Assembly: GCA_027574665.1 (NCBI GenBank)
Contig: CM050655.1
Location: forward strand, 992,001 to 1,056,000
Length of the DNA: 64,000 nucleotides
DNA from: Rhynochetos jubatus
Lineage: Eukaryota > Chordata > Aves > Eurypygiformes > Rhynochetidae
Direction of reading: 5' to 3'
Shown one piece after another: positions 1 to 63,677 of this stretch. The stretch's first letter is position 1; each line of letters begins with the position of its first letter. The notes under the pieces were generated by a model, which made no database searches, was not told the origin of the DNA, and saw only the letters and a list, made by a program, of their open reading frames with translations. Position numbers and translations under genes: made by a program.

Positions 1-455
1 GCGTCTGCCCGAACACGGACATCTGAAGCAGCACTGTAATGCGACCAAACAGAAAGAGTTAGGAGAGAATTTCTTGTCCCTTCTTGCTGCGCCTTTGCAG
101 AGCACTGCGTGCCAGAGCAGCCGGATCGCTGTGTTGCTTGCAATCTCCAGTTCCAACAGTGCCACAGTTCCTCGGCAACAGAAAGAGCTAGGAAGCAATT
201 GCTTGCGCTGATTTCTCTCGCTGTGCTCTAGCAGTTCGTTCCCTTTTCGGCAGAGCGCGGGACCGCTTGCAAAGCTTAGAAACAAACCTCTCCCTTTTCC
301 TCCAAAAGGGAAAGAGCTACGAGAGAATTTCTTAGGGAAACCTTGTTTGTTTTGGCAGAGCACTGCATGCCTCTTAAGACAGAGCTCTGTATCCCCGGGA
401 AAGTCGAAATCCAGGGGGACACCTTCTCTGTCCTAACAGGCTCGGAGAGGCTCGA
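1..455. repeat. Left-edge partial satellite monomer
   Basis: The window opens at monomer offset 18, counting from the ATGCGCGG landmark, so the first 17 bases of this unit lie outside. It has the CCCGGG form of the box at 393-409 and GGGACCGC at the position where some left-side units read GGGACAGC. The array therefore extends leftward beyond the window. Confidence 0.95.
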
Positions 456-524
456 ATGCGCGGCTCGTTGAAGCGTCTGCCCGAACACGGACATCTGAAG
501 CAGCACTGTAATGCGACCAAACAG

Positions 525-653
525 AAAGAGTTAGGAGAGAATTTCTTGTCCCTTCTTGCTGCGCCTTTGCAGAGCACTGCGTGCCAGAGCAGCCGGATCG
601 CTGTCTTGCTTGCAATCTCCAGTTCCAACAGTGCCACAGTTCCTCGGCAACAG
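525..653. repeat. Internal subrepeat copy 1 (129 bp)
   Basis: It starts with AAAGAGTTAGGAGAGAATTT and is followed exactly 129 bp later by a near copy (AAAGAGCTAGGAAGCAATTG). At offset 46 it has GCAGAGCACTGCGTGCC, which reappears as GCAGAGCACTGCATGCC exactly 258 bp (two 129-bp steps) later. The two shared segments sit at equal offsets in copies 1 and 3, which argues for common descent and not chance. Between the matching ends, similarity is low, so this layer is old. Confidence 0.65.
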
Positions 654-782
654 AAAGAGCTAGGAAGCAATTGCTTGCGCTGATTTCTCTCGCTGTGCTC
701 TAGCAGTTCGTTCCCTTTTCGGCAGAGCGCGGGACAGCTTGCAAAGCTTAGAAACAAACCTCTCCCTTTTCCTCCAAAAGGG
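654..782. repeat. Internal subrepeat copy 2 (129 bp)
   Basis: It starts with AAAGAGCTAGGAAGCAATTG, 129 bp after copy 1 and 129 bp before copy 3. The first 25 or so bases align to both other copies. The middle (a CTAGCAGTTCGTTCC stretch at offset 46) is only loosely similar to the GCAGAGCACTGC segment of copies 1 and 3, and an AGAGCGCGGG element follows. It ends in the hairpin arm that leads into copy 3. Confidence 0.6.
665..676. repeat. 12-bp perfect palindrome AAGCAATTGCTT
   Basis: This sequence equals its own reverse complement and lies at the start of subrepeat 2. About half of the monomers instead carry AAGGAATTGCTT, a single C-to-G change that breaks the symmetry. The site is therefore one of the most frequent polymorphic positions of the array. 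Confidence 0.85.
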
Positions 783-783
783 A
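763..783. repeat. Hairpin-forming inverted repeat (8-bp stem, 5-nt loop)
   Basis: TCCCTTTT pairs with AAAAGGGA around a CCTCC loop. It recurs in essentially every monomer at the same offset and is one of the least variable stretches. One unit (near 28597) has CCTCCTAAAGGG, losing a stem pair. There is no T-run after it, so it does not look like a bacterial terminator, and the context is non-coding satellite. Any role as a cruciform or replication-pausing element is unproven. Confidence 0.7.
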
Positions 784-871
784 AAGAGCTACGAGGGAAT
801 TTCTTAGGGAAACCTTGATTGTTTTGGCAGAGCACTGCATGCCTCTTAAGACAGAGCTCTGTATCCCCGGG
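783..871. repeat. Internal subrepeat copy 3, shortened
   Basis: It starts with AAAGAGCTACGAGGGAATTT and carries GCAGAGCACTGCATGCC at the same offset (46) as copy 1. Only about 89 bp separate it from the next AAAG-type start at 872, so it appears truncated relative to the 129-bp unit, or the following segment was inserted. Its 3' part is the palindrome cluster. Confidence 0.55.
837..871. repeat. Cluster of four adjacent perfect palindromes
   Basis: GCATGC (837-842), TCTTAAGA (844-851), ACAGAGCTCTGT (851-862) and CCCGGG (866-871) occupy 35 bp. The last overlaps the CENP-B-like site. Restriction enzymes with these recognition sites (SphI, AflII, SacI, SmaI) would mostly cut once per monomer and give a 472-bp ladder, except that the CCCGGG is missing in 49 of 135 copies. 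Three units (near 27727, 45193 and 48497) read CTTAAGAGAGAG, and one (near 62187) reads ACAGTGCTCTGG. Confidence 0.85.
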
Positions 872-881
872 AAAGTCGAAA
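865..881 (-). promoter_or_regulatory. CENP-B-box-like site, representative copy
   Basis: Read on the minus strand the 17 bases are TTTCGACTTTCCCGGGG. The essential pattern of the mammalian CENP-B box is NTTCGNNNNANNCGGGN. TTCG and CGGG are both intact with correct spacing; only the central A is T. That is 8 of the 9 defined bases. The same form is present once per monomer in 86 of 135 copies (first at 393-409, then every unit). A simple chance estimate for one or zero mismatches is about 0.1 per monomer, so a coincidence is possible. CENP-B binding is known for mammals; the species here is unknown, so function is inference only. Confidence 0.4.
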
Positions 882-996
882 TCCAGGGGGACACCTTCTC
901 TGTGCTAACTGGCTCGGAGAGGCTCGAATGCGCGGCTCGTTGAAGCGTCTGCCCGAACAGGGACATCTGAAGCAGCACTGTAATGCGACCAAACAG
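872..996. repeat. Tentative fourth subrepeat
   Basis: A GGGAAAG start like the one that begins copy 3 is found at 869-875, followed by TCGAAATCC and a CTTCTCTGT stretch that loosely resembles the CTCTCGCTGT of copy 2. It runs 125 bp to the next AAAGAG start at 997. Similarity to the other copies is weak and I would not insist on common origin. Confidence 0.3.
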
Positions 997-1399
997 AAAG
1001 AGTTAGGAGACAATTTCTTGTCCCTTCTTGCTGCGCCTTTGCAGAGCACTGCTTGCCAGAGCAGCCGGATCGCTGTCTTGCTTGCAATCTCCAGTTCCAA
1101 CAGTGCCACAGTTCCTCGGCAACAGAAAGAGCTAGGAAGCAATTGCTTGCGCTGATTTCTCTCGCTGTGCTCTAGCAGTTCGTTCCCTTTTCGGCAGAGC
1201 GCGGGACCGCTTGCAAAGCTTAGAAACAAACCTCTCCCTTTTCCTCCAAAAGGGAAAGAGCTACGAGAGAATTTCTTAGGGAAACCTCGTTTGTTTTGGC
1301 AGAGCAGTGCATGCCTCTTAAGACAGAGCTCTGTATCCCCGGGAAAGTCGAAATCCAGGGGGACACCTTCTCTGTGCTAACTGGCTCGGAGAGGCTCGA

Positions 1400-1868
1400 A
1401 TGCGCGGCTCGTTGAAGCGTCTGCCCGAACACGATCTAAAGCAGCACTGTAATGCGACCAAACAGAAAGAGTTAGGAGGGAATTTCTTGTCCCTTCTTGC
1501 TGCGCCTTTGCAGAGCACTGCGTGCCAGAGCAGCCGGATCGCTGTGTTGCTTGCAATCTCCAGTTCCAACAGTGCCACAGTTCCTCGGCAACAGAAAGAG
1601 CTAGGAAGGAATTGCTTGCGCTGATTTCTCTCGCTGTGCTCTAGCAGTTCGTTCCCTTTTCGGCAGAGCGCGGGACCGCTTGCAAAGCTTAGAAACAAAC
1701 CTCTCCCTTTTCCTCCAAAAGGGAAAGAGCTACGAGAGAATTTCTTAGGGAAACCTTGATTGTTTTGGCAGAGCACTGCATGCCTCTTAAGACAGAGCTC
1801 TGTATCCCCGGGAAAGTCGAAATCCAGGGGGACACCTTCTCTGTGCTAACAGGCTCGGAGAGGCTCGA
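1400..1868. repeat. 469-bp monomer with 3-bp deletion
   Basis: The stretch CACGGACATCT is CACGATCT here (near 1430), a 3-bp loss. The unit also has GAGGGAATTTC in subrepeat 1, a change that accompanies the deletion in eight of its nine carriers. It is the leftmost example. Confidence 0.9.
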
Positions 1869-3433
1869 ATGCGCGGCTCGTTGAAGCGTCTGCCCGAACA
1901 CGGACATCTGAAGCAGCACTGTAATGCGACCAAACAGAAAGAGTTAGGAGAGAATTTCTTGTCCCTTCTTGCTGCGCCTTTGCAGAGCACTGCGTGCCAG
2001 AGCAGCCGGATCGCTGTCTTGCTTGCAATCTCCAGTTCCAACAGTGCCACAGTTCCTCGGCAACAGAAAGAGCTAGGAAGCAATTGCTTGCGCTGATTTC
2101 TCTCGCTGTGCTCTAGCAGTTCGTTCCCTTTTCGGCAGAGCGCGGGACAGCTTGCAAAGCTTAGAAACAAACCTCTCCCTTTTCCTCCAAAAGGGAAAGA
2201 GCTACGAGGGAATTTCTTAGCGAAACCTTGTTTGTTTTGGCAGGGCACTGCATGCCTCTTAAGACAGAGCTCTGTATCCCCGGGAAAGTCGAAATCCAGG
2301 GGGACACCTTCTCTGTCCTAACAGGCTCGGAGAGGCTCGAATGCGCGGCTCGTTGAAGCGTCTGCCCGAACACGGACATCTGAAGCAGCACTGTAATGCG
2401 ACCAAACAGAAAGAGTTAGGAGAGAATTTCTTGTCCCTTCTTGCTGCGCCTTTGCAGAGCACTGCGTGCCAGAGCAGCCGGATCGCTGTGTTGCTTGCAA
2501 TCTCCAGTTCCAACAGTGCCACAGTTCCTCGGCAACAGAAAGAGCTAGGAAGCAATTGCTTGCGCTGATTTCTCTCGCTGTGCTCTAGCAGTTCGTTCCC
2601 TTTTCGGCAGAGCGCGGGACAGCTTGCAAAGCTTAGAAACAAACCTCTCCCTTTTCCTCCAAAAGGGAAAGAGCTACGAGGGAATTTCTTAGCGAAACCT
2701 TGTTTGTTTTGGCAGAGCACTGCATGCCTCTTAAGACAGAGCTCTGGATCAGTGGGCAAGTCGAAATCCAGGGGGACACCTTCTCTGTCCTAACTGGCTC
2801 GGAGAGGCTCGAATGCGCGGCTCGTTGAAGCGTCTGCCCGAACACGGACATCTAAAGCAGCACTGTAATGCGACCAAACAGGAAGAGTTAGGAGAGAATT
2901 TCTTGTCCCTCCTTGCTGCGCCTTTGCAGAGCACTGCGTGCCAGAGCAGCCGGATCGCTGTCTTGCTTGCAATCTCCAGTTCCAACAGTGCCACAGTTCC
3001 TCGGCAACAGAAAGAGCTAGGAAGCAATTGCTTGCGCTGTTTTCTCTCGCTGTGCTCTAGCAGTTCGTTCCCTTTTCGGCAGAGCGCGGGACCGCTTGCA
3101 AAGCTTAGAAACAAACCTCTCCCTTTTCCTCCAAAAGGGAAAGAGCTACGAGAGAATTTCTTAGGGAAACCTTGATTGTTTTGGCAGAGCACTGCATGCC
3201 TCTTAAGACAGAGCTCTGTATCCCCGGGAAAGTCGAAATCCAGGGGGACACCTTCTCTGTCCTAACAGGCTCGGAGAGGCTCGAATGCGCGGCTCGTTGA
3301 AGCGTCTGCCCGAACACGGACATCTGAAGCAGCACTGTAATGCGACCAAACAGAAAGAGTTAGGAGAGAATTTCTTGTCCCTTCTTGCTGCGCCTTTGCA
3401 GAGCACTGCGTGCCAGAGCAGCCGGATCGCTGT
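1852..3433. repeat. Copied block, 9-monomer offset, copy 1
   Basis: It matches 6094-7675 at an offset of 4,242 bp (nine monomers, two of them 469 bp). I found one difference in 1,582 bp: G at 2490 against C at 6732. Outside the limits, differences return at once (1851/6093 and 3434/7676). Confidence 0.85.
2750..2766 (-). other. Alternative box form (CENP-B-like site destroyed)
   Basis: Here the plus strand reads CAGTGGGCAAGTCGAAA where other units read CCCCGGGAAAGTCGAAA. Four changes fall inside the 17-bp site (three in the CCCG half, one at the centre) and a fifth lies 3 bp upstream (CTCTGG for CTCTGT). Only 5 of 9 essential CENP-B positions remain. The changes travel together as one haplotype in 49 of 135 copies, so this is a defined subfamily and not scattered decay. 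This is the first copy in the window. Confidence 0.8.
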
Positions 3434-4119
3434 CTTGCTTGCAATCTCCAGTTCCAACAGTGCCACAGTTCCTCGGCAACAGAAAGAGCTAGGAAGCAAT
3501 TGCTTGCGCTGATTTCTCTCGCTGTGCTCTAGCAGTTCGTTCCCTTTTCGGCAGAGCGCGGGACAGCTTGCAAAGCTTAGAAACAAACCTCTCCCTTTTC
3601 CTCCAAAAGGGAAAGAGCTACGAGGGAATTTCTTAGCGAAACCTTGTTTGTTTTGGCAGGGCACTGCATGCCTCTTAAGACAGAGCTCTGTATCCCCGGG
3701 AAAGTCGAAATCCAGGGGGACACCTTCTCTGTCCTAACTGGCTCGGAGAGGCTCGAATGCGCGGCTCGTTGAAGCGTCTGCCCGAACACGGACATCTAAA
3801 GCAGCACTGTAATGCGACCAAACAGGAAGAGTTAGGAGAGAATTTCTTGTCCCTCCTTGCTGCGCCTTTGCAGAGCACTGCGTGCCAGAGCAGCCGGATC
3901 GCTGTCTTGCTTGCAATCTCCAGTTCCAACAGTGCCACAGTTCCTCGGCAACAGAAAGAGCTAGGAAGGAATTGCTTGCGCTGATTTCTCTCGCTGTGCT
4001 CTAGCAGTTCGTTCCCTTTTCGGCAGAGCGCGGGACCGCTTGCAAAGCTTAGAAACAAACCTCTCCCTTTTCCTCCAAAAGGGAAAGAGCTACGAGAGAA
4101 TTTCTTAGGGAAACCTTGT

Positions 4120-6142
4120 TTGTTTTGGCAGAGCACTGCATGCCTCTTAAGACAGAGCTCTGGATCAGTGGGCAAGTCGAAATCCAGGGGGACACCTTCT
4201 CTGTCCTAACTGGCTCGGAGAGGCTCGAATGCGCGGCTCGTTGAAGCGTCTGCCCGAACACGGACATCTAAAGCAGCACTGTAATGCGACCAAACAGGAA
4301 GAGTTAGGAGAGAATTTCTTGTCCCTCCTTGCTGCGCCTTTGCAGAGCACTGCGTGCCAGAGCAGCCGGATCGCTGTGTTGCTTGCAATCTCCAGTTCCA
4401 ACAGTGCCACAGTTCCTCGGCAACAGAAAGAGCTAGGAAGGAATTGCTTGCGCTGATTTCTCTCGCTGTGCTCTAGCAGTTCGTTCCCTTTTCGGCAGAG
4501 CGCGGGACCGCTTGCAAAGCTTAGAAACAAACCTCTCCCTTTTCCTCCAAAAGGGAAAGAGCTACGAGGGAATTTCTTAGCGAAACCTTGTTTGTTTTGG
4601 CAGAGCACTGCATGCCTCTTAAGACAGAGCTCTGAATCCCCGGGAAAGTCGAAATCCAGCGGGACACCTTCTCTGTGCTAACAGGCTCGGAGAGGCTCGA
4701 ATGCGCGGCTCGTTGAAGCGTCTGCCCGAACACGATCTAAAGCAGCACTGTAATGCGACCAAACAGAAAGAGTTAGGAGGGAATTTCTTGTCCCTTCTTG
4801 CTGCGCCTTTGCAGAGCACTGCGTGCCAGAGCAGCCGGATCGCTGTGTTGCTTGCAATCTCCAGTTCCAACAGTGCCACAGTTCCTCGGCAACAGAAAGA
4901 GCTAGGAAGGAATTGCTTGCGCTGATTTCTCTCGCTGTGCTCTAGCAGTTCGTTCCCTTTTCGGCAGAGCGCGGGACCGCTTGCAAAGCTTAGAAACAAA
5001 CCTCTCCCTTTTCCTCCAAAAGGGAAAGAGCTACGAGGGAATTTCTTAGGGAAACCTTGATTGTTTTGGCAGAGCACTGCATGCCTCTTAAGACAGAGCT
5101 CTGTATCCCCGGGAAAGTCGAAATCCAGGGGGACACCTTCTCTGTGCTAACTGGCTCGGAGAGGCTCGAATGCGCGGCTCGTTGAAGCGTCTGCCCGAAC
5201 ACGATCTAAAGCAGCACTGTAATGCGACCAAACAGAAAGAGTTAGGAGGGAATTTCTTGTCCCTTCTTGCTGCGCCTTTGCAGAGCACTGCGTGCCAGAG
5301 CAGCCGGATCGCTGTGTTGCTTGCAATCTCCAGTTCCAACAGTGCCACAGTTCCTCGGCAACAGAAAGAGCTAGGAAGGAATTGCTTGCGCTGATTTCTC
5401 TCGCTGTGCTCTAGCAGTTCGTTCCCTTTTCGGCAGAGCGCGGGACCGCTTGCAAAGCTTAGAAACAAACCTCTCCCTTTTCCTCCAAAAGGGAAAGAGC
5501 TACGAGAGAATTTCTTAGCGAAATCTCGTTTGTTTTGGCAGAGCACTGCATGCCTCTTAAGACAGAGCTCTGTATCCCCGGGAAAGTCGAAATCCAGGGG
5601 GACACCTTCTCTGTCCTAACAGGCTCGGAGAGGCTCGAATGCGCGGCTCGTTGAAGCGTCTGCCCGAACACGGACATCTGAAGCAGCACTGTAATGCGAC
5701 CAAACAGAAAGAGTTAGGAGAGAATTTCTTGTCCCTTCTTGCTGCGCCTTTGCAGAGCACTGCGTGCCAGAGCAGCCGGATCGCTGTGTTGCTTGCAATC
5801 TCCAGTTCCAACAGTGCCACAGTTCCTCGGCAACAGAAAGAGCTAGGAAGCAATTGCTTGCGCTGTTTTCTCTCGCTGTGCTCTAGCAGTTCGTTCCCTT
5901 TTCGGCAGAGCGCGGGACCGCTTGCAAAGCTTAGAAACAAACCTCTCCCTTTTCCTCCAAAAGGGAAAGAGCTACGAGGGAATTTCTTAGGGAAACCTTG
6001 ATTGTTTTGGCAGAGCACTGCATGCCTCTTAAGACAGAGCTCTGTATCCCCGGGAAAGTCGAAATCCAGGGGGACACCTTCTCTGTCCTAACTGGCTCGG
6101 AGAGGCTCGAATGCGCGGCTCGTTGAAGCGTCTGCCCGAACA
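4120..6142. repeat. Copied block, 11-monomer offset, copy 1
   Basis: It matches 9306-11328 at an offset of 5,186 bp over 2,023 bp, with no difference that I could find. It includes the two adjacent 469-bp monomers. Limits are set by T/A at 4119/9305 and C/G at 6143/11329. Confidence 0.85.
4701..5638. repeat. Two adjacent 469-bp monomers
   Basis: Units at 4701 and 5170 both carry the 3-bp deletion (CACGATCTAAAG) and GAGGGAATTTC. Each is nearly the same as the other, so a local monomer duplication is likely. The pair recurs 5,186 bp to the right. Confidence 0.9.
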
Positions 6143-7675
6143 CGGACATCTGAAGCAGCACTGTAATGCGACCAAACAGAAAGAGTTAGGAGAGAATTTC
6201 TTGTCCCTTCTTGCTGCGCCTTTGCAGAGCACTGCGTGCCAGAGCAGCCGGATCGCTGTCTTGCTTGCAATCTCCAGTTCCAACAGTGCCACAGTTCCTC
6301 GGCAACAGAAAGAGCTAGGAAGCAATTGCTTGCGCTGATTTCTCTCGCTGTGCTCTAGCAGTTCGTTCCCTTTTCGGCAGAGCGCGGGACAGCTTGCAAA
6401 GCTTAGAAACAAACCTCTCCCTTTTCCTCCAAAAGGGAAAGAGCTACGAGGGAATTTCTTAGCGAAACCTTGTTTGTTTTGGCAGGGCACTGCATGCCTC
6501 TTAAGACAGAGCTCTGTATCCCCGGGAAAGTCGAAATCCAGGGGGACACCTTCTCTGTCCTAACAGGCTCGGAGAGGCTCGAATGCGCGGCTCGTTGAAG
6601 CGTCTGCCCGAACACGGACATCTGAAGCAGCACTGTAATGCGACCAAACAGAAAGAGTTAGGAGAGAATTTCTTGTCCCTTCTTGCTGCGCCTTTGCAGA
6701 GCACTGCGTGCCAGAGCAGCCGGATCGCTGTCTTGCTTGCAATCTCCAGTTCCAACAGTGCCACAGTTCCTCGGCAACAGAAAGAGCTAGGAAGCAATTG
6801 CTTGCGCTGATTTCTCTCGCTGTGCTCTAGCAGTTCGTTCCCTTTTCGGCAGAGCGCGGGACAGCTTGCAAAGCTTAGAAACAAACCTCTCCCTTTTCCT
6901 CCAAAAGGGAAAGAGCTACGAGGGAATTTCTTAGCGAAACCTTGTTTGTTTTGGCAGAGCACTGCATGCCTCTTAAGACAGAGCTCTGGATCAGTGGGCA
7001 AGTCGAAATCCAGGGGGACACCTTCTCTGTCCTAACTGGCTCGGAGAGGCTCGAATGCGCGGCTCGTTGAAGCGTCTGCCCGAACACGGACATCTAAAGC
7101 AGCACTGTAATGCGACCAAACAGGAAGAGTTAGGAGAGAATTTCTTGTCCCTCCTTGCTGCGCCTTTGCAGAGCACTGCGTGCCAGAGCAGCCGGATCGC
7201 TGTCTTGCTTGCAATCTCCAGTTCCAACAGTGCCACAGTTCCTCGGCAACAGAAAGAGCTAGGAAGCAATTGCTTGCGCTGTTTTCTCTCGCTGTGCTCT
7301 AGCAGTTCGTTCCCTTTTCGGCAGAGCGCGGGACCGCTTGCAAAGCTTAGAAACAAACCTCTCCCTTTTCCTCCAAAAGGGAAAGAGCTACGAGAGAATT
7401 TCTTAGGGAAACCTTGATTGTTTTGGCAGAGCACTGCATGCCTCTTAAGACAGAGCTCTGTATCCCCGGGAAAGTCGAAATCCAGGGGGACACCTTCTCT
7501 GTCCTAACAGGCTCGGAGAGGCTCGAATGCGCGGCTCGTTGAAGCGTCTGCCCGAACACGGACATCTGAAGCAGCACTGTAATGCGACCAAACAGAAAGA
7601 GTTAGGAGAGAATTTCTTGTCCCTTCTTGCTGCGCCTTTGCAGAGCACTGCGTGCCAGAGCAGCCGGATCGCTGT
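6094..7675. repeat. Copied block, 9-monomer offset, copy 2
   Basis: Partner of 1852-3433. Its left limit falls only about 50 bp inside the right end of another copied block (4120-6142), so breakpoints of separate events cluster around 6.1 kb. Confidence 0.85.
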
Positions 7676-9305
7676 GTTGCTTGCAATCTCCAGTTCCAAC
7701 AGTGCCACAGTTCCTCGGCAACAGAAAGAGCTAGGAAGCAATTGCTTGCGCTGATTTCTCTCGCTGTGCTCTAGCAGTTCGTTCCCTTTTCGGCAGAGCG
7801 CGGGACCGCTTGCAAAGCTTAGAAACAAACCTCTCCCTTTTCCTCCAAAAGGGAAAGAGCTACGAGAGAATTTCTTAGGGAAACCTTGTTTGTTTTGGCA
7901 GAGCACTGCATGCCTCTTAAGACAGAGCTCTGTATCCCCGGGAAAGTCGAAATCCAGGGGGACACCTTCTCTGTCCTAACAGGCTCGGAGAGGCTCGAAT
8001 GCGCGGCTCGTTGAAGCGTCTGCCCGAACACGGACATCTGAAGCAGCACTGTAATGCGACCAAACAGAAAGAGTTAGGAGAGAATTTCTTGTCCCTTCTT
8101 GCTGCGCCTTTGCAGAGCACTGCGTGCCAGAGCAGCCGGATCGCTGTCTTGCTTGCAATCTCCAGTTCCAACAGTGCCACAGTTCCTCGGCAACAGAAAG
8201 AGCTAGGAAGCAATTGCTTGCGCTGATTTCTCTCGCTGTGCTCTAGCAGTTCGTTCCCTTTTCGGCAGAGCGCGGGACAGCTTGCAAAGCTTAGAAACAA
8301 ACCTCTCCCTTTTCCTCCAAAAGGGAAAGAGCTACGAGGGAATTTCTTAGCGAAACCTTGTTTGTTTTGGCAGGGCACTGCATGCCTCTTAAGACAGAGC
8401 TCTGGATCAGTGGGCAAGTCGAAATCCAGGGGGACACCTTCTCTGTCCTAACTGGCTCGGAGAGGCTCGAATGCGCGGCTCGTTGAAGCGTCTGCCCGAA
8501 CACGGACATCTAAAGCAGCACTGTAATGCGACCAAACAGGAAGAGTTAGGAGAGAATTTCTTGTCCCTCCTTGCTGCGCCTTTGCAGAGCACTGCGTGCC
8601 AGAGCAGCCGGATCGCTGTCTTGCTTGCAATCTCCAGTTCCAACAGTGCCACAGTTCCTCGGCAACAGAAAGAGCTAGGAAGGAATTGCTTGCGCTGATT
8701 TCTCTCGCTGTGCTCTAGCAGTTCGTTCCCTTTTCGGCAGAGCGCGGGACCGCTTGCAAAGCTTAGAAACAAACCTCTCCCTTTTCCTCCAAAAGGGAAA
8801 GAGCTACGAGAGAATTTCTTAGGGAAACCTTGTTTGTTTTGGCAGAGCACTGCATGCCTCTTAAGACAGAGCTCTGTATCCCCGGGAAAGTCGAAATCCA
8901 GGGGGACACCTTCTCTGTCCTAACAGGCTCGGAGAGGCTCGAATGCGCGGCTCGTTGAAGCGTCTGCCCGAACACGGACATCTGAAGCAGCACTGTAATG
9001 CGACCAAACAGAAAGAGTTAGGAGAGAATTTCTTGTCCCTTCTTGCTGCGCCTTTGCAGAGCACTGCGTGCCAGAGCAGCCGGATCGCTGTCTTGCTTGC
9101 AATCTCCAGTTCCAACAGTGCCACAGTTCCTCGGCAACAGAAAGAGCTAGGAAGCAATTGCTTGCGCTGATTTCTCTCGCTGTGCTCTAGCAGTTCGTTC
9201 CCTTTTCGGCAGAGCGCGGGACAGCTTGCAAAGCTTAGAAACAAACCTCTCCCTTTTCCTCCAAAAGGGAAAGAGCTACGAGGGAATTTCTTAGGGAAAC
9301 CTTGA

Positions 9306-11328
9306 TTGTTTTGGCAGAGCACTGCATGCCTCTTAAGACAGAGCTCTGGATCAGTGGGCAAGTCGAAATCCAGGGGGACACCTTCTCTGTCCTAACTGGC
9401 TCGGAGAGGCTCGAATGCGCGGCTCGTTGAAGCGTCTGCCCGAACACGGACATCTAAAGCAGCACTGTAATGCGACCAAACAGGAAGAGTTAGGAGAGAA
9501 TTTCTTGTCCCTCCTTGCTGCGCCTTTGCAGAGCACTGCGTGCCAGAGCAGCCGGATCGCTGTGTTGCTTGCAATCTCCAGTTCCAACAGTGCCACAGTT
9601 CCTCGGCAACAGAAAGAGCTAGGAAGGAATTGCTTGCGCTGATTTCTCTCGCTGTGCTCTAGCAGTTCGTTCCCTTTTCGGCAGAGCGCGGGACCGCTTG
9701 CAAAGCTTAGAAACAAACCTCTCCCTTTTCCTCCAAAAGGGAAAGAGCTACGAGGGAATTTCTTAGCGAAACCTTGTTTGTTTTGGCAGAGCACTGCATG
9801 CCTCTTAAGACAGAGCTCTGAATCCCCGGGAAAGTCGAAATCCAGCGGGACACCTTCTCTGTGCTAACAGGCTCGGAGAGGCTCGAATGCGCGGCTCGTT
9901 GAAGCGTCTGCCCGAACACGATCTAAAGCAGCACTGTAATGCGACCAAACAGAAAGAGTTAGGAGGGAATTTCTTGTCCCTTCTTGCTGCGCCTTTGCAG
10001 AGCACTGCGTGCCAGAGCAGCCGGATCGCTGTGTTGCTTGCAATCTCCAGTTCCAACAGTGCCACAGTTCCTCGGCAACAGAAAGAGCTAGGAAGGAATT
10101 GCTTGCGCTGATTTCTCTCGCTGTGCTCTAGCAGTTCGTTCCCTTTTCGGCAGAGCGCGGGACCGCTTGCAAAGCTTAGAAACAAACCTCTCCCTTTTCC
10201 TCCAAAAGGGAAAGAGCTACGAGGGAATTTCTTAGGGAAACCTTGATTGTTTTGGCAGAGCACTGCATGCCTCTTAAGACAGAGCTCTGTATCCCCGGGA
10301 AAGTCGAAATCCAGGGGGACACCTTCTCTGTGCTAACTGGCTCGGAGAGGCTCGAATGCGCGGCTCGTTGAAGCGTCTGCCCGAACACGATCTAAAGCAG
10401 CACTGTAATGCGACCAAACAGAAAGAGTTAGGAGGGAATTTCTTGTCCCTTCTTGCTGCGCCTTTGCAGAGCACTGCGTGCCAGAGCAGCCGGATCGCTG
10501 TGTTGCTTGCAATCTCCAGTTCCAACAGTGCCACAGTTCCTCGGCAACAGAAAGAGCTAGGAAGGAATTGCTTGCGCTGATTTCTCTCGCTGTGCTCTAG
10601 CAGTTCGTTCCCTTTTCGGCAGAGCGCGGGACCGCTTGCAAAGCTTAGAAACAAACCTCTCCCTTTTCCTCCAAAAGGGAAAGAGCTACGAGAGAATTTC
10701 TTAGCGAAATCTCGTTTGTTTTGGCAGAGCACTGCATGCCTCTTAAGACAGAGCTCTGTATCCCCGGGAAAGTCGAAATCCAGGGGGACACCTTCTCTGT
10801 CCTAACAGGCTCGGAGAGGCTCGAATGCGCGGCTCGTTGAAGCGTCTGCCCGAACACGGACATCTGAAGCAGCACTGTAATGCGACCAAACAGAAAGAGT
10901 TAGGAGAGAATTTCTTGTCCCTTCTTGCTGCGCCTTTGCAGAGCACTGCGTGCCAGAGCAGCCGGATCGCTGTGTTGCTTGCAATCTCCAGTTCCAACAG
11001 TGCCACAGTTCCTCGGCAACAGAAAGAGCTAGGAAGCAATTGCTTGCGCTGTTTTCTCTCGCTGTGCTCTAGCAGTTCGTTCCCTTTTCGGCAGAGCGCG
11101 GGACCGCTTGCAAAGCTTAGAAACAAACCTCTCCCTTTTCCTCCAAAAGGGAAAGAGCTACGAGGGAATTTCTTAGGGAAACCTTGATTGTTTTGGCAGA
11201 GCACTGCATGCCTCTTAAGACAGAGCTCTGTATCCCCGGGAAAGTCGAAATCCAGGGGGACACCTTCTCTGTCCTAACTGGCTCGGAGAGGCTCGAATGC
11301 GCGGCTCGTTGAAGCGTCTGCCCGAACA
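9306..11328. repeat. Copied block, 11-monomer offset, copy 2
   Basis: Partner of 4120-6142. The apparent lack of differences suggests a recent event, either a large-scale unequal exchange or a gene-conversion tract. Confidence 0.85.
9887..10824. repeat. Two adjacent 469-bp monomers, second occurrence
   Basis: Units at 9887 and 10356 repeat the pair at 4701 and 5170 without a difference that I can see. They belong to the larger copied block 9306-11328. Confidence 0.9.
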
Positions 11329-12712: not shown

Positions 12713-13181
12713 ATGCGCGGCTCGTTGAAGCGTCTGCCCGAACACGATCTAAAGCAGCACTGTAATGCGACCAAACAGAAAGAGTTAGGAGGGAATTTCT
12801 TGTCCCTTCTTGCTGCGCCTTTGCAGAGCACTGCGTGCCAGAGCAGCCGGATCGCTGTCTTGCTTGCAATCTCCAGTTCCCACAGTGCCACAGTTCCTCG
12901 GCAACAGAAAGAGCTAGGAAGCAATTGCTTGCGCTGTTTTCTCTCGCTGTGCTCTAGCAGTTCGTTCCCTTTTCGGCAGAGCGCGGGACCGCTTGCAAAG
13001 CTTAGAAACAAACCTCTCCCTTTTCCTCCAAAAGGGAAAGAGCTACGAGAGAATTTCTTAGGGAAACCTTGATTGTTTTGGCAGAGCACTGCATGCCTCT
13101 TAAGACAGAGCTCTGTATCCCCGGGAAAGTCGAAATCCAGGGGGACACCTTCTCTGTGCTAACAGGCTCGGAGAGGCTCGA
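12713..13181. repeat. 469-bp monomer with 3-bp deletion
   Basis: It has the CACGATCTAAAG deletion, plus CAGTTCCCACAG in place of CAGTTCCAACAG. The latter change is also found in units at 15542, 17424, 19784 and 24974. Confidence 0.9.
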
Positions 13182-52804: not shown

Positions 52805-55800
52805 GGCTCGGAGAGGCTCGAATGCGCGGCTCGTTGAAGCGTCTGCCCGAACACGGACATCTGAAGCAGCACTGTAATGCGACCAAACAGAAAGAGTTAG
52901 GAGAGAATTTCTTGTCCCTTCTTGCTGCGCCTTTGCAGAGCACTGCGTGCCAGAGCAGCCGGATCGCTGTGTTGCTTGCAATCTCCAGTTCCAACAGTGC
53001 CACAGTTCCTCGGCAACAGAAAGAGCTAGGAAGCAATTGCTTGCGCTGATTTCTCTCGCTGTGCTCTAGCAGTTCGTTCCCTTTTCGGCAGAGCGCGGGA
53101 CCGCTTGCAAAGCTTAGAAACAAACCTCTCCCTTTTCCTCCAAAAGGGAAAGAGCTACGAGGGAATTTCTTAGCGAAACCTTGTTTGTTTTGGCAGGGCA
53201 CTGCATGCCTCTTAAGACAGAGCTCTGGATCAGTGGGCAAGTCGAAATCCAGGGGGACACCTTCTCTGTCCTAACTGGCTCGGAGAGGCTCGAATGCGCG
53301 GCTCGTTGAAGCGTCTGCCCGAACACGGACATCTAAAGCAGCACTGTAATGCGACCAAACAGAAAGAGTTAGGAGAGAATTTCTTGTCCCTCCTTGCTGC
53401 GCCTTTGCAGAGCACTGCGTGCCAGAGCAGCCGGATCGCTGTCTTGCTTGCAATCTCCAGTTCCAACAGTGCCACAGTTCCTCGGCAACAGAAAGAGCTA
53501 GGAAGGAATTGCTTGCGCTGATTTCTCTCGCTGTGCTCTAGCAGTTCGTTCCCTTTTCGGCAGAGCGCGGGACCGCTTGCAAAGCTTAGAAACAAACCTC
53601 TCCCTTTTCCTCCAAAAGGGAAAGAGCTACGAGAGAATTTCTTAGGGAAACCTTGTTTGTTTTGGCAGAGCACTGCATGCCTCTTAAGACAGAGCTCTGT
53701 ATCCCCGGGAAAGTCGAAATCCAGAGAGTCACCTTCTCTGTCCTAACAGACTCGGAGAGGCTCGAATGCGCGGCTCGTTGAAGCGTCTGCCCGAACACGG
53801 ACATCTAAAGCAGCACTGTAATGCGACCAAACAGAAAGAGTTAGGAGAGAATTTCTTGTCCCTCCTTGCTGCGCCTTTGCAGAGCACTGTGTGCCAGAGC
53901 AGCCGGATCGCTGTGTTGCTTGCAATCTCCAGTTCCAACAGTGCCACAGTTCCTCGGCAACAGAAAGAGCTAGGAAGCAATTGCTTACGCTAATTTCTCT
54001 CGCTGTGCTCTAGCAGTTCGTTCCCTTTTCTGCAGAGGGTGGGACCGCTTGCAAAGCTTAGAAACAAACCTCTCCCTTTTCCTCCAAAAGGGAAAGAGCT
54101 ACGAGAGTATTTCTTAGCGAAATCTCGTTTGTTTTGGCAGAGCACTGCATGCCTCTTAAGACAGAGCTCTGGATCAGTGGGCAAGTCGAAATCCAGAGCG
54201 ACACCTTCTCTGTCCTAACAGGCTCGGAGAGGCTCGAATGCGCGGCTCGTTGAAGCGTCTGCCCGAACACGGACATCTAAAGCAGCACTGTAATGCGACC
54301 AAACAGAAAGAGTTAGGAGACAATTTCTTGTCCCTTCTTGCTGCGCCTTTGCAGAGCACTGCGTGCCAGAGCAGCCGGATCGCTGTCTTGCTTGCAATCT
54401 CCAGTTCCAACAGTGCCACAGTTCCTCGGCAACAGAAAGAGCTAGGAAGCAATTGCTTGCGCTGATTTCTCTCGCTGTGCTCTAGCAGTTCGTTCCCTTT
54501 TCGGCAGAGCGCGGGACCGCTTGCAAAGCTTAGAAACAAACCTCTCCCTTTTCCTCCAAAAGGGAAAGAGCTACGAGAGAATTTCTTAGGGAAACCTTGT
54601 TTGTTTTGGCAGAGCACTGCATGCCTCTTAAGACAGAGCTCTGTATCCCCGGGAAAGTCGAAATCCAGGGGGACACCTTCTCTGTCCTAACTGGCTCGGA
54701 GAGGCTCGAATGCGCGTCTCGTTGAAGCGTCTGCCCGAACACGGACATCTGAAGCAGCACTGTAATGCGACCAAACAGAAAGAGTTAGGAGACAATTTCT
54801 TGTCCCTTCTTGCTGCGCCTTTGCAGAGCACTGCGTGCCAGAGCAGCCGGATCGCTGTCTTGCTTGCAATCTCCAGTTCCAACAGTGCCACAGTTCCTCG
54901 GCAACAGAAAGAGCTAGGAAGGAATTGCTTGCGCTGTTTTCTCTCGCTGTGCTCTAGCAGTTCGTTCCCTTTTCGGCAGAGCGCGGGACCGCTTGCAAAG
55001 CTTAGAAACAAACCTCTCCCTTTTCCTCCAAAAGGGAAAGAGCTACGAGAGAATTTCTTAGTGAAATCTCGTTTGTTTTGGCAGAGCACTGCATGCCTCT
55101 TAAGACAGAGCTCTGTATCCCCGGGAAAGTCGAAATCCAGAGAGTCACCTTCTCTGTCCTAACAGACTCGGAGAGGCTCGAATGCGCGGCTCGTTGAAGC
55201 GTCTGCCCGAACACGGACATCTAAAGCAGCACTGTAATGCGACCAAACAGAAAGAGTTAGGAGAGAATTTCTTGTCCCTCCTTGCTGCGCCTTTGCAGAG
55301 CACTGTGTGCCAGAGCAGCCGGATCGCTGTGTTGCTTGCAATCTCCAGTTCCAACAGTGCCACAGTTCCTCGGCAACAGAAAGAGCTAGGAAGCAATTGC
55401 TTACGCTAATTTCTCTCGCTGTGCTCTAGCAGTTCGTTCCCTTTTCTGCAGAGGGTGGGACCGCTTGCAAAGCTTAGAAACAAACCTCTCCCTTTTCCTC
55501 CAAAAGGGAAAGAGCTACGAGAGTATTTCTTAGCGAAATCTCGTTTGTTTTGGCAGAGCACTGCATGCCTCTTAAGACAGAGCTCTGTATCCCCGGGAAA
55601 GTCGAAATCCAGGGGGACACCTTCTCTGTCCTAACTGGCTCGGAGAGGCTCGAATGCGCGGCTCGTTGAAGCGTCTGCCCGAACACGGACATCTGAAGCA
55701 GCACTGTAATGCGACCAAACAGAAAGAGTTAGGAGAGAATTTCTTGTCCCTTCTTGCTGCGCCTTTGCAGAGCACTGCGTGCCAGAGCAGCCGGATCGCT

Positions 55801-55865
55801 GTGTTGCTTGCAATCTCCAGTTCCAACAGTGCCACAGTTCCTCGGCAACAGAAAGAGCTAGGAAG
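52805..55865. repeat. 6-monomer higher-order repeat, copy 1
   Basis: It matches 55637-58697 at an offset of 2,832 bp over 3,061 bp with no difference that I could find. The six units (A to F, starting at 52822, 53294, 53766, 54238, 54710 and 55182) are clearly distinct from each other: for example C and F have TTACGCTAATTT, E has CGCGTCTCG and D has GAGACAATTTC with the box-less end of C before it. So the identity is between HOR copies, not between neighbouring monomers. The copies overlap by 229 bp. Confidence 0.9.
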
Positions 55866-58697
55866 CAATTGCTTGCGCTGATTTCTCTCGCTGTGCTCTA
55901 GCAGTTCGTTCCCTTTTCGGCAGAGCGCGGGACCGCTTGCAAAGCTTAGAAACAAACCTCTCCCTTTTCCTCCAAAAGGGAAAGAGCTACGAGGGAATTT
56001 CTTAGCGAAACCTTGTTTGTTTTGGCAGGGCACTGCATGCCTCTTAAGACAGAGCTCTGGATCAGTGGGCAAGTCGAAATCCAGGGGGACACCTTCTCTG
56101 TCCTAACTGGCTCGGAGAGGCTCGAATGCGCGGCTCGTTGAAGCGTCTGCCCGAACACGGACATCTAAAGCAGCACTGTAATGCGACCAAACAGAAAGAG
56201 TTAGGAGAGAATTTCTTGTCCCTCCTTGCTGCGCCTTTGCAGAGCACTGCGTGCCAGAGCAGCCGGATCGCTGTCTTGCTTGCAATCTCCAGTTCCAACA
56301 GTGCCACAGTTCCTCGGCAACAGAAAGAGCTAGGAAGGAATTGCTTGCGCTGATTTCTCTCGCTGTGCTCTAGCAGTTCGTTCCCTTTTCGGCAGAGCGC
56401 GGGACCGCTTGCAAAGCTTAGAAACAAACCTCTCCCTTTTCCTCCAAAAGGGAAAGAGCTACGAGAGAATTTCTTAGGGAAACCTTGTTTGTTTTGGCAG
56501 AGCACTGCATGCCTCTTAAGACAGAGCTCTGTATCCCCGGGAAAGTCGAAATCCAGAGAGTCACCTTCTCTGTCCTAACAGACTCGGAGAGGCTCGAATG
56601 CGCGGCTCGTTGAAGCGTCTGCCCGAACACGGACATCTAAAGCAGCACTGTAATGCGACCAAACAGAAAGAGTTAGGAGAGAATTTCTTGTCCCTCCTTG
56701 CTGCGCCTTTGCAGAGCACTGTGTGCCAGAGCAGCCGGATCGCTGTGTTGCTTGCAATCTCCAGTTCCAACAGTGCCACAGTTCCTCGGCAACAGAAAGA
56801 GCTAGGAAGCAATTGCTTACGCTAATTTCTCTCGCTGTGCTCTAGCAGTTCGTTCCCTTTTCTGCAGAGGGTGGGACCGCTTGCAAAGCTTAGAAACAAA
56901 CCTCTCCCTTTTCCTCCAAAAGGGAAAGAGCTACGAGAGTATTTCTTAGCGAAATCTCGTTTGTTTTGGCAGAGCACTGCATGCCTCTTAAGACAGAGCT
57001 CTGGATCAGTGGGCAAGTCGAAATCCAGAGCGACACCTTCTCTGTCCTAACAGGCTCGGAGAGGCTCGAATGCGCGGCTCGTTGAAGCGTCTGCCCGAAC
57101 ACGGACATCTAAAGCAGCACTGTAATGCGACCAAACAGAAAGAGTTAGGAGACAATTTCTTGTCCCTTCTTGCTGCGCCTTTGCAGAGCACTGCGTGCCA
57201 GAGCAGCCGGATCGCTGTCTTGCTTGCAATCTCCAGTTCCAACAGTGCCACAGTTCCTCGGCAACAGAAAGAGCTAGGAAGCAATTGCTTGCGCTGATTT
57301 CTCTCGCTGTGCTCTAGCAGTTCGTTCCCTTTTCGGCAGAGCGCGGGACCGCTTGCAAAGCTTAGAAACAAACCTCTCCCTTTTCCTCCAAAAGGGAAAG
57401 AGCTACGAGAGAATTTCTTAGGGAAACCTTGTTTGTTTTGGCAGAGCACTGCATGCCTCTTAAGACAGAGCTCTGTATCCCCGGGAAAGTCGAAATCCAG
57501 GGGGACACCTTCTCTGTCCTAACTGGCTCGGAGAGGCTCGAATGCGCGTCTCGTTGAAGCGTCTGCCCGAACACGGACATCTGAAGCAGCACTGTAATGC
57601 GACCAAACAGAAAGAGTTAGGAGACAATTTCTTGTCCCTTCTTGCTGCGCCTTTGCAGAGCACTGCGTGCCAGAGCAGCCGGATCGCTGTCTTGCTTGCA
57701 ATCTCCAGTTCCAACAGTGCCACAGTTCCTCGGCAACAGAAAGAGCTAGGAAGGAATTGCTTGCGCTGTTTTCTCTCGCTGTGCTCTAGCAGTTCGTTCC
57801 CTTTTCGGCAGAGCGCGGGACCGCTTGCAAAGCTTAGAAACAAACCTCTCCCTTTTCCTCCAAAAGGGAAAGAGCTACGAGAGAATTTCTTAGTGAAATC
57901 TCGTTTGTTTTGGCAGAGCACTGCATGCCTCTTAAGACAGAGCTCTGTATCCCCGGGAAAGTCGAAATCCAGAGAGTCACCTTCTCTGTCCTAACAGACT
58001 CGGAGAGGCTCGAATGCGCGGCTCGTTGAAGCGTCTGCCCGAACACGGACATCTAAAGCAGCACTGTAATGCGACCAAACAGAAAGAGTTAGGAGAGAAT
58101 TTCTTGTCCCTCCTTGCTGCGCCTTTGCAGAGCACTGTGTGCCAGAGCAGCCGGATCGCTGTGTTGCTTGCAATCTCCAGTTCCAACAGTGCCACAGTTC
58201 CTCGGCAACAGAAAGAGCTAGGAAGCAATTGCTTACGCTAATTTCTCTCGCTGTGCTCTAGCAGTTCGTTCCCTTTTCTGCAGAGGGTGGGACCGCTTGC
58301 AAAGCTTAGAAACAAACCTCTCCCTTTTCCTCCAAAAGGGAAAGAGCTACGAGAGTATTTCTTAGCGAAATCTCGTTTGTTTTGGCAGAGCACTGCATGC
58401 CTCTTAAGACAGAGCTCTGTATCCCCGGGAAAGTCGAAATCCAGGGGGACACCTTCTCTGTCCTAACTGGCTCGGAGAGGCTCGAATGCGCGGCTCGTTG
58501 AAGCGTCTGCCCGAACACGGACATCTGAAGCAGCACTGTAATGCGACCAAACAGAAAGAGTTAGGAGAGAATTTCTTGTCCCTTCTTGCTGCGCCTTTGC
58601 AGAGCACTGCGTGCCAGAGCAGCCGGATCGCTGTGTTGCTTGCAATCTCCAGTTCCAACAGTGCCACAGTTCCTCGGCAACAGAAAGAGCTAGGAAG
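55637..58697. repeat. 6-monomer higher-order repeat, copy 2
   Basis: Partner of 52805-55865, with units at 55654, 56126, 56598, 57070, 57542 and 58014. A partial third series follows at 59430-61789 with units like A, B, C and D and then an E/F chimera. Confidence 0.9.
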
Positions 58698-59429
58698 GAA
58701 TTGCTTGCGCTCTTTTCTCTCGCTGTGCTCTAGCAGTTCGTTCCCTTTTCGGCAGAGCGCGGGACCGCTTGCAAAGCTTAGAAACAAACCTCTCCCTTTT
58801 CCTCCAAAAGGGAAAGAGCTACGAGAGAATTTCTTAGGGAAACCTTGTTTGTTTTGGCAGAGCACTGCATGCCTCTTAAGACAGAGCTCTGTATCCCCGG
58901 GAAAGTCGAAATCCAGAGGGACACCTTCTCTGTGCTAACAGGCTCGGAGAGGCTCGAATGCGCGGCTCGTTGAAGCGTCTGCCCGAACAGGGACATCTAA
59001 AGCAGCACTGTAATGCGACCAAACAGAAAGAGTTAGGAGAGAATTTCTTGTCCCTCCTTGCTGCGCCTTTGCAGAGCACTGCGTGCCAGAGCAGCCGGAT
59101 CGCTGTGTTGCTTGCAATCTCCAGTTCCAACAGTGCCACAGTTCCTCGGCAACAGAAAGAGCTAGGAAGCAATTGCTTGCGCTGATTTCTCTCGCTGTGC
59201 TCTAGCAGTTCGTTCCCTTTTCGGCAGAGCGCGGGACCGCTTGCAAAGCTTAGAAACAAACCTCTCCCTTTTCCTCCAAAAGGGAAAGAGCTACGAGAGA
59301 ATTTCTTAGGGAAACCTTGTTTGTTTTGGCAGAGCACTGCATGCCTCTTAAGACAGAGCTCTGTATCCCCGGGAAAGTCGAAATCCAGAGCGACACCTTC
59401 TCTGTCCTAACAGGCTCGGAGAGGCTCGA

Positions 59430-61789
59430 ATGCGCGGCTCGTTGAAGCGTCTGCCCGAACACGGACATCTGAAGCAGCACTGTAATGCGACCAAACAGAA
59501 AGAGTTAGGAGAGAATTTCTTGTCCCTTCTTGCTGCGCCTTTGCAGAGCACTGCGTGCCAGAGCAGCCGGATCGCTGTGTTGCTTGCAATCTCCAGTTCC
59601 AACAGTGCCACAGTTCCTCGGCAACAGAAAGAGCTAGGAAGGAATTGCTTGCGCTGATTTCTCTCGCTGTGCTCTAGCAGTTCGTTCCCTTTTCGGCAGA
59701 GCGCGGGACCGCTTGCAAAGCTTAGAAACAAACCTCTCCCTTTTCCTCCAAAAGGGAAAGAGCTACGAGGGAATTTCTTAGCGAAACCTTGTTTGTTTTG
59801 GCAGGGCACTGCATGCCTCTTAAGACAGAGCTCTGGATCAGTGGGCAAGTCGAAATCCAGGGGGACACCTTCTCTGTCCTAACTGGCTCGGAGAGGCTCG
59901 AATGCGCGGCTCGTTGAAGCGTCTGCCCGAACACGGACATCTAAAGCAGCACTGTAATGCGACCAAACAGAAAGAGTTAGGAGAGAATTTCTTGTCCCTT
60001 CTTGCTGCGCCTTTGCAGAGCACTGCGTGCCAGAGCAGCCGGATCGCTGTCTTGCTTGCAATCTCCAGTTCCAACAGTGCCACAGTTCCTCGGCAACAGA
60101 AAGAGCTAGGAAGGAATTGCTTGCGCTCTTTTCTCTCGCTGTGCTCTAGCAGTTCGTTCCCTTTTCGGCAGAGCGCGGGACCGCTTGCAAAGCTTAGAAA
60201 CAAACCTCTCCCTTTTCCTCCAAAAGGGAAAGAGCTACGAGAGAATTTCTTAGGGAAACCTTGTTTGTTTTGGCAGAGCACTGCATGCCTCTTAAGACAG
60301 AGCTCTGTATCCCCGGGAAAGTCGAAATCCAGAGCGACACCTTCTCTGTCCTAACAGACTCGGAGAGGCTCGAATGCGCGGCTCGTTGAAGCGTCTGCCC
60401 GAACACGGACATCTAAAGCAGCACTGTAATGCGACCAAACAGAAAGAGTTAGGAGAGAATTTCTTGTCCCTCCTTGCTGCGCCTTTGCAGAGCACTGTGT
60501 GCCAGAGCAGCCGGATCGCTGTGTTGCTTGCAATCTCCAGTTCCAACAGTGCCACAGTTCCTCGGCAACAGAAAGAGCTAGGAAGCAATTGCTTACGCTA
60601 ATTTCTCTCGCTGTGCTCTAGCAGTTCGTTCCCTTTTCTGCAGAGGGTGGGACCGCTTGCAAAGCTTAGAAACAAACCTCTCCCTTTTCCTCCAAAAGGG
60701 AAAGAGCTACGAGAGTATTTCTTAGCGAAACCTTGTTTGTTTTGGCAGGGCACTGCATGCCTCTTAAGACAGAGCTCTGGATCAGTGGGCAAGTCGAAAT
60801 CCAGAGCGACACCTTCTCTGTCCTAACAGGCTCGGAGAGGCTCGAATGCGCGGCTCGTTGAAGCGTCTGCCCGAACACGGACATCTAAAGCAGCACTGTA
60901 ATGCGACCAAACAGAAAGAGTTAGGAGACAATTTCTTGTCCCTTCTTGCTGCGCCTTTGCAGAGCACTGCATGCCAGAGCAGCCGGATCGCTGTGTTGCT
61001 TGCAATCTCCAGTTCCAACAGTGCCACAGTTCCTCGGCAACAGAAAGAGCTAGGAAGCAATTGCTTGCGCTGATTTCTCTCGCTGTGCTCTAGCAGTTCG
61101 TTCCCTTTTCGGCAGAGCGCGGGACCGCTTGCAAAGCTTAGAAACAAACCTCTCCCTTTTCCTCCAAAAGGGAAAGAGCTACGAGAGAATTTCTTAGGGA
61201 AACCTTGTTTGTTTTGGCAGAGCACTGCATGCCTCTTAAGACAGAGCTCTGTATCCCCGGGAAAGTCGAAATCCAGGGGGACACCTTCTCTGTCCTAACT
61301 GGCTCGGAGAGGCTCGAATGCGCGTCTCGTTGAAGCGTCTGCCCGAACACGGACATCTGAAGCAGCACTGTAATGCGACCAAACAGAAAGAGTTAGGAGA
61401 CAATTTCTTGTCCCTTCTTGCTGCGCCTTTGCAGAGCACTGTGTGCCAGAGCAGCCGGATCGCTGTGTTGCTTGCAATCTCCAGTTCCAACAGTGCCACA
61501 GTTCCTCGGCAACAGAAAGAGCTAGGAAGCAATTGCTTACGCTAATTTCTCTCGCTGTGCTCTAGCAGTTCGTTCCCTTTTCTGCAGAGGGTGGGACCGC
61601 TTGCAAAGCTTAGAAACAAACCTCTCCCTTTTCCTCCAAAAGGGAAAGAGCTACGAGAGTATTTCTTAGCGAAATCTCGTTTGTTTTGGCAGAGCACTGC
61701 ATGCCTCTTAAGACAGAGCTCTGTATCCCCGGGAAAGTCGAAATCCAGGGGGACACCTTCTCTGTCCTAACTGGCTCGGAGAGGCTCGA
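59430..61789. repeat. Degenerate third copy of the 6-monomer unit (5 monomers)
   Basis: Units at 59430, 59902, 60374, 60846 and 61318 follow the A-B-C-D order of 52822-54709 and then end in one monomer that begins as E and ends as F. Differences include GCGCTCTTTTC in B and GCGAAACCTTG with GCAGGGCAC in C. Two further monomers (58486 and 58958) separate it from copy 2. Confidence 0.65.
61318..61789. repeat. Chimeric monomer (recombinant of two neighbouring types)
   Basis: The left part has CGCGTCTCG, ATCTGAAG, GAGACAATTTC and TCCCTTCTTG, as in the units at 54710 and 57542. The right part has ACTGTGTGCC, TTACGCTAATTT, TGCAGAGGGTGGG, GAGTATTTC and GCGAAATCTCG, as in the next units at 55182 and 58014. 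The switch lies between 61416 and 61442. Joining unit E to unit F this way removes one monomer, which turns a six-monomer series into a five-monomer one. This is what unequal crossing-over predicts. Confidence 0.8.
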
Positions 61790-63677
61790 ATGCGCGGCTC
61801 GTTGAAGCGTCTGCCCGAACACGGACATCTGAAGCAGCACTGTAATGCGACCAAACAGAAAGAGTTAGGAGAGAATTTCTTGTCCCTTCTTGCTGCGCCT
61901 TTGCAGAGCACTGCGTGCCAGAGCAGCCGGATCGCTGTGTTGCTTGCAATCTCCAGTTCCAACAGTGCCACAGTTCCTCGGCAACAGAAAGAGCTAGGAA
62001 GGAATTGCTTGCGCTGATTTCTCTCGCTGTGCTCTAGCAGTTCGTTCCCTTTTCGGCAGAGCGCGGGACCGCTTGCAAAGCTTAGAAACAAACCTCTCCC
62101 TTTTCCTCCAAAAGGGAAAGAGCTACGAGAGAATTTCTTAGGGAAACCTTGTTTGTTTTGGCCGAGCACTGCATGCCTCTTAAGACAGTGCTCTGGATCA
62201 GTGGGCAAGTCGAAATCCAGGGGGACACCTTCTCTGTCCTAACTGGCTCGGAGAGGCTCGAATGCGCGGCTCGTTGAAGCGTCTGCCCGAACACGGACAT
62301 CTGAAGCAGCACTGTAATGCGACCAAACAGAAAGAGTTAGGAGAGAATTTCTTGTCCCTTCTTGCTGCGCCTTTGCAGAGCACTGCGTGCCAGAGCAGCC
62401 GGATCGCTGTGTTGCTTGCAATCTCCAGTTCCAACAGTGCCACAGTTCCTCGGCAACAGAAAGAGCTAGGAAGGAATTGCTTGCGCTGTTTTCTCTCGCT
62501 GTGCTCTAGCAGTTCGTTCCCTTTTCGGCAGAGCGCGGGACCGCTTGCAAAGCTTAGAAACAAACCTCTCCCTTTTCCTCCAAAAGGGAAAGAGCTACGA
62601 GGGAATTTCTTAGGGAAACCTTGATTGTTTTGGCAGAGCACTGCATGCCTCTTAAGACAGAGCTCTGGATCCCCGGGAAAGTCGAAATCCAGAGCGACAC
62701 CTTCTCTGTCCTAACTGGCTCGGAGAGGCTCGAATGCGCGGCTCGTTGAAGCGTCTGCCCGAACACGGACATCTGAAGCAGCACTGTAATGCGACCAAAC
62801 AGAAAGAGTTAGGAGAGAATTTCTTGTCCCTTCTTGCTGCGCCTTTGCAGAGCACTGCGTGCCAGAGCAGCCGGATCGCTGTCTTGCTTGCAATCTCCAG
62901 TTCCAACAGTGCCACAGTTCCTCGGCAACAGAAAGAGCTAGGAAGGAATTGCTTACGCTGATTTCTCTCGCTGTGCTCTAGCAGTTCGTTCCCTTTTCGG
63001 TAGAGCGCGGGACCGCTTGCAAAGCTTAGAAACAAACCTCTCCCTTTTCCTCCAAAAGGGAAAGAGCTACGAGAGAATTTCTTAGGGAAACCTTGTTTGT
63101 TTTGGCAGAGCACTGCATGCCTCTTAAGACAGAGCTCTGGATCAGTGGGCAAGTCGAAATCCAGAGCGACACCTTCTCTGTCCTAACTGGCTCGGAGAGG
63201 CTCGAATGCGCGGCTCGTTGAAGCGTCTGCCCGAACACGGACATCTGAAGCAGCACTGTAATGCGACCAAACAGAAAGAGTTAGGAGACAATTTCTTGTC
63301 CCTTCTTGCTGCGCCTTTGCAGAGCACTGCGTGCCAGAGCAGCCGGATCGCTGTGTTGCTTGCAATCTCCAGTTCCAACAGTGCCACAGTTCCTCGGCAA
63401 CAGAAAGAGCTAGGAAGGAATTGCTTGCGCTGTTTTCTCTCGCTGTGCTCTAGCAGTTCGTTCCCTTTTCGGCAGAGCGCGGGACCGCTTGCAAAGCTTA
63501 GAAACAAACCTCTCCCTTTTCCTCCAAAAGGGAAAGAGCTACGAGAGAATTTCTTAGGGAAACCTTGTTTGTTTTGGCAGAGCACTGCATGCCTCTTAAG
63601 ACAGAGCTCTGGATCCCCGGGAAAGTCGAAATCCAGAGAGTCACCTTCTCTGTCCTAACAGACTCGGAGAGGCTCGA

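Follow-up and report, generated by a model that had tools for sequence, protein, structure and literature searches.

The tandem array analysed here carries, once per repeat unit, a short site that resembles the CENP-B box, the binding motif of a centromere protein, and that occurs in two forms at the same place. This raises the question of whether the site is a functional box with a non-binding companion, as known from alpha satellite, or whether ordinary satellite evolution has multiplied a coincidental likeness.

The array and its monomer

The window, by which we mean the whole 64,000-nucleotide stretch that was analysed, is a single tandem array of a 472-bp satellite monomer, with about 135.6 copies and 97% matches according to Tandem Repeats Finder. 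The array fills the whole 64 kb, and neither end of the window showed unique or flanking sequence.

1..64000, no strand assigned: tandem array of the 472-bp satellite monomer (Tandem Repeats Finder and monomer cutting)

Cutting at a fixed anchor delimited 135 complete monomers, most of them 472 bp long (124/135) and the remainder 469 bp (nine), 470 bp (one) or 473 bp (one). With the site excluded, identity between monomers averages 97.6%. The G+C content of the array is 52%, and the form A consensus has CpG at 0.75 of the expected frequency, which is not a strong depletion. As a long head-to-tail array of near-identical units, the window is satellite DNA, a form that points to a eukaryotic source.

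Exact pattern scans of viral and genome contigs (viruses, plasmids, bacteria and archaea) yielded no relative of the array, and neither did blastn of positions 1–1000 against plasmids and phages; a eukaryotic relative would be improbable in either collection. One contig picked by a degenerate pattern (L001, from a Syntrophorhabdaceae metagenome-assembled genome) was discarded as a chance hit, its likeness being confined to one 30-bp stretch; the rest of its 8,000 bases gave no match below E 3.2. Among the literature matches listed for a 472-bp satellite, judged by title and the start of the abstract, none was fitting, and a literature search for four sequence words from the array returned no match. 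An Rfam scan of positions 1 to 1500 gave three matches at E 1.2–2.1, far under the gathering scores, which we regard as noise.

Two forms at one monomer offset

The pattern TTCGNNNNTNNCGGG (TTCG-N4-T-N2-CGGG) matches the window 86 times, on the minus strand only, with the first match at 394–408 and the last at 63616–63630, and every match reads TTCGACTTTCCCGGG. This bears out the sequence-only reading, which had noticed eight of the nine essential CENP-B-box bases at a fixed monomer offset on this strand. We refer to this sequence as form A (plus strand CCCCGGGAAAGTCGAA); it is present in 86 of the 135 complete monomers, and form B (plus strand CAGTGGGCAAGTCGAA) is present in 49.

393..409, minus strand: 17-bp site, first copy, form A; 8/9 CENP-B-box core bases, with T in place of the central A; 86 copies in the window
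2750..2766, minus strand: form B, first copy, at the same monomer offset as form A; 5/9 core bases (counted by eye); 49 copies in the window
63615..63631, minus strand: 17-bp site, last copy, form A (pattern match)

As had also been proposed from the sequence, the second form differs by four substitutions within the 17 bp, located at alignment columns 396, 397, 398 and 402, and these lower its match to 5/9. The four columns show a mutual r2 of 1. Column 392 lies just beyond the 17 bp and is linked to the form with an r2 of 0.69: all 49 copies of form B have G there, and the form A copies carry T (74), A (6) or G (6). Across 24 columns, form B is uniform and form A varies at column 392 only.

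All four substitutions fall on the nine columns described as essential in the CENP-B box (P 0.053 for a random draw of four among 17). Overall, five variant columns lie within 11 bp at the site, a clustering reached by 9% of random placements. Polymorphic columns make up 4/9 of the core compared to 33/464 in the rest of the monomer, and this excess probably goes back to a single event. Private variants, defined as alleles in fewer than six copies, are absent from the site in all 135 copies. The same is true of 25% of the overlapping 17-bp intervals of the monomer, because private variants are rare overall (81 in the alignment). The interval scored for the site began one column before the 17-mer, whose last column is also free of variants according to the haplotype list.

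Self-comparison divides the 472 bp of the monomer into three diverged sub-repeats, each about 129 bp long and 58–65% identical to one another, and one poorly aligning segment. Monomer positions 50–276 and 179–405 are 58% identical over 228 aligned positions.

519..647 (bounds approximate), plus strand: sub-repeat 1 of the second monomer, about 129 bp; homologous place without a box
649..775 (bounds approximate), plus strand: sub-repeat 2 of the second monomer; homologous place without a box
777..885, plus strand: sub-repeat 3 of the second monomer; 65% identity with sub-repeat 1 (110 aligned positions); contains the site at 865–881

Since the homologous places in sub-repeats 1 and 2 carry no box, the motif was not recognisably inherited from the sub-repeat ancestor. 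At the diagnostic columns, compared by eye, both sub-repeats share the form A base at 397 and 402 and the form B base at 398, and they match neither form at 396, so neither form is assignable as the older one. A search within the monomer for a donor of form B found one 7-base match elsewhere only.

Likeness to the CENP-B box and the role of chance

The canonical 17-bp motif YTTCGTTGGAARCGGGA was taken from PMC11230421, where the part available to us gives nine bases as essential for CENP-B binding. This nine-base core, NTTCGNNNNANNCGGGN, has no exact match on either strand of the window and is complete in none of the 135 copies. The central core base is T or G in every copy and never A, so the lack of the central A, already remarked upon earlier, applies throughout. 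Form A matches 8/9 core bases and agrees with the canonical 17-mer at 9/17 positions, including just one of the eight non-core positions; form B agrees at 6/17. Neither form thus resembles the box over its whole length.

At least eight of the nine core bases were found in 7.2% of 3,000 dinucleotide-preserving shuffled monomers, a rate that is not fully independent of the core-column figure of 0.053 and that concerns a motif chosen after the site had been seen. The expected number of such matches on either strand is 0.10–0.11 per monomer, close to the rough rate of 0.1 estimated before. Shuffles of the whole window never reached 86 matches; this is the wrong control, however, because all 86 copies derive from one sequence by copying and are not independent observations, and the chance test was therefore made per 472-bp monomer.

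A CENP-B or pogo-derived homologue that tolerates the central T might nevertheless bind form A, and form B might then be a non-binding companion comparable to the A monomers of alpha satellite. In favour of this reading, the 8/9 match is kept in 86 of the 135 copies, all of which are free of private changes there, and the four substitutions of form B all fall on core columns. Published likenesses can also be poorer in core bases: the accessible parts of the sources describe CENP-B-box-like motifs with 4–5/9 core bases and 10–12/17 overall in six sequences of Meloidogyne satellites (PMC3694981), and with 5/9 core bases and 59% overall in SATCHO1 of the two-toed sloth (PMC7644632). Like the site studied here, these are partial matches to the 17-bp box, with no binding shown in the parts of the papers available. 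Our site has more core bases than they do but fewer of the 17, and its whole-box agreement falls below both. Evidently, CENP-B-box-like likenesses are easy to come by.

Real boxes, too, are often incomplete. In gorilla plasmid inserts, all nine core bases are present in just 44 of 89 box monomers, as far as the accessible part of PMC4585704 documents, which tempers any argument from an incomplete core. Yet about half of the gorilla boxes are complete, compared to 0/135 here. Counting further against a functional box are the chance rate of 7–10% per monomer, the description of all nine bases as essential, and the presence of CENP-B boxes in only some clades among mammals, as stated in the accessible part of PMC8997354. 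Taken together, we consider a functional variant box unlikely. Judged by sequence comparison, the CENP-B reading of the site appears weak and the likeness of form A to the box is most likely coincidental; we infer that CENP-B does not bind there.

Comparison with alpha satellite

Like this array, human and great-ape alpha satellite has two short motifs that replace each other at a fixed place in the monomer, and it too has a higher-order repeat. According to the accessible parts of PMC8997354 and PMC4585704, its A monomers carry the pJ-alpha motif where B monomers have the CENP-B box. At the site studied here, forms A and B each match pJ-alpha at 9/17 positions, while 13/17 is reached elsewhere in the monomer, and form B hence does not stand out as a pJ-alpha motif. 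The pJ-alpha motif is given in PMC4585704.

Further differences concern the monomer (171 bp in alpha satellite, 472 bp here), the CENP-B boxes, which alpha satellite has and of which this array lacks any complete core, and the order of the forms, whose alternation is weak here, unlike the A/B layout of alpha satellite. Moreover, the A and B monomers of alpha satellite are distinct throughout their length, whereas in this array the form shows only weak linkage to columns beyond 392–402 (largest r2 0.13). Of the proposed parallel, the two-form layout at a fixed offset therefore stands, and the correspondence of the motifs themselves does not.

Linkage and order of the forms along the array

Across the monomer, linkage between variant columns falls with distance: mean r2 is 0.45–0.48 at 1–7 bp, 0.15 at 8–15 bp, 0.07–0.10 at 16–120 bp and 0.03 beyond 120 bp. 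Column pairs outside the site also start at raised values (r2 0.28 and 0.23). The linkage at the site is complete, exceeds that of other pairs at like distance and is the strongest multi-substitution case in the monomer. Further short groups of linked columns were found at 19–21, 343/346, 251/258/260, 207/212 and 417/419. The sequence-only reading was thus right to place the main haplotype cluster on the site, with an r2 of 1 across four columns, but this cluster is accompanied by others. Given these groups and the decay over tens of bases, a short haplotype block lies within the normal variation of the array.

When each monomer is paired with the copy nearest to it by remainder, the two share the form in 79% of cases, compared to 54% expected, so the linkage of the form to the remainder is not wholly dissolved. 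Among pairs whose remainders are at most one base apart, 19/80 differ in form.

Monomers 3, 6, 9 or 12 units apart are more alike, also when columns 388–412 are excluded, and none of 2,000 permuted orders reached this likeness. Because the signal persists without these columns, the trimer order belongs to the array itself, not to the site: the array has a decayed higher-order repeat of three monomers, or about 1.4 kb. Lags 11, 14 and 15 also stand out in monomer likeness, and a six-monomer block starting at monomer 112 (0-based) recurs six monomers later, each monomer showing no more than two differences.

The forms keep roughly to the order A-A-B over the first third of the array, with agreement of 0.69, 0.69 and 0.81 at lags 3, 6 and 9. 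This agreement is weaker or absent in the second third (0.62, 0.54 and 0.47) and the last third (0.48, 0.62 and 0.64). Compared to permuted orders, agreement over the whole array is significant at lag 9 (P 0.007) and not at lag 3 (P 0.07). The forms alternate slightly more often than at random (73 runs, 63.4 expected, P 0.04 uncorrected); this slight excess can be explained without a binding protein.

Alternative explanations of the two forms

The site could also be the centre of a hairpin or cruciform kept for its structure, with the two forms as alternative pairings; dyads of this kind are discussed for centromeres without CENP-B boxes in the accessible part of PMC8997354.

841..913, no strand assigned: imperfect inverted repeat, about 73 bp long and enclosing the site, weak hairpin (self-comparison, 68% over 74 aligned positions; folding)

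Both forms fold into a hairpin, with mean energies of −11.05 and −11.44 kcal/mol, and the form A segment beats most of its shuffles (9/200 as good, z −1.79). The form B segment, offset by three bases, is however unremarkable (83/200 shuffles as good, z −0.23), and the energy did not worsen significantly when 5′ halves were paired with 3′ halves of other copies across the 135 (P 0.11, 300 permutations), which leaves no clear covariation. A structural role is thus very unlikely. On the opposite arm of the weak hairpin, near the box, columns 417 and 419 are three-allele sites that show no clear covariation with the forms.

More far-reaching would be an independently evolved satellite in which binding and non-binding versions of a box with an altered central base, recognised by a pogo-derived CENP-B-like protein, compete within the array; we regard this as highly improbable. 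If form A did bind such a protein, the array would offer a natural setting for testing the gain and loss of a centromere box. An artefact of assembly or consensus building as the source of the two forms is barely conceivable, as nothing beyond the general risk for satellite arrays points to it, whereas the forms are interleaved throughout the array, each is nearly or entirely uniform across the 24 columns, and near-identical remainders occur with both.

A probable origin by ordinary satellite turnover

Our verdict is that of an ordinary satellite carrying a suggestive but unsupported motif, and its probable history combines a sub-repeat origin, trimer amplification, one multi-base change and spread of the resulting forms by exchange, with the CENP-B likeness arising by coincidence. 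The monomer may have formed from about three diverged units, each about 129 bp long, and a further segment, and would then have been amplified with a higher-order repeat of three monomers, now partly decayed. The two short haplotypes could have arisen by one multi-base change at one place, whether by conversion, template switch or multi-nucleotide mutation, and in either direction. Unequal exchange and conversion would have spread both forms, and recombination between copies may have removed most of the linkage between the form and the remainder of the monomer.

Ordinary turnover can give such a two-form layout, because linkage falls with distance, other linked groups exist and the decayed trimer lies outside the site as well. 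With ordinary eukaryotic satellites that have higher-order repeats, the array shares its head-to-tail arrangement, its 97.6% identity, the trimer periodicity, the diverged sub-repeats and the distance-decaying linkage, and we found no feature that distinguishes it from them. Against this explanation, we count the position of all substitutions on core columns, the clustering of variants, the complete linkage at the site, the over-alternation and the 79% sharing of form; that incomplete boxes are common in a real system, the gorilla (PMC4585704, accessible part), also weighs on this side. The case illustrates how one 8/9 likeness, multiplied by tandem copying, can appear stronger than it is.

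Apart from the site, two sets of linked variants mark subsets of the copies. At columns 19–21 (e.g. near window position 1431), nine copies have a 3-bp deletion in common, which is in linkage with a column 67 variant (r2 0.62). A second linked set comprises columns 207, 212, 251, 258, 260 and 328, with each variant in 12–22 copies, and perhaps represents a distinct monomer subtype.
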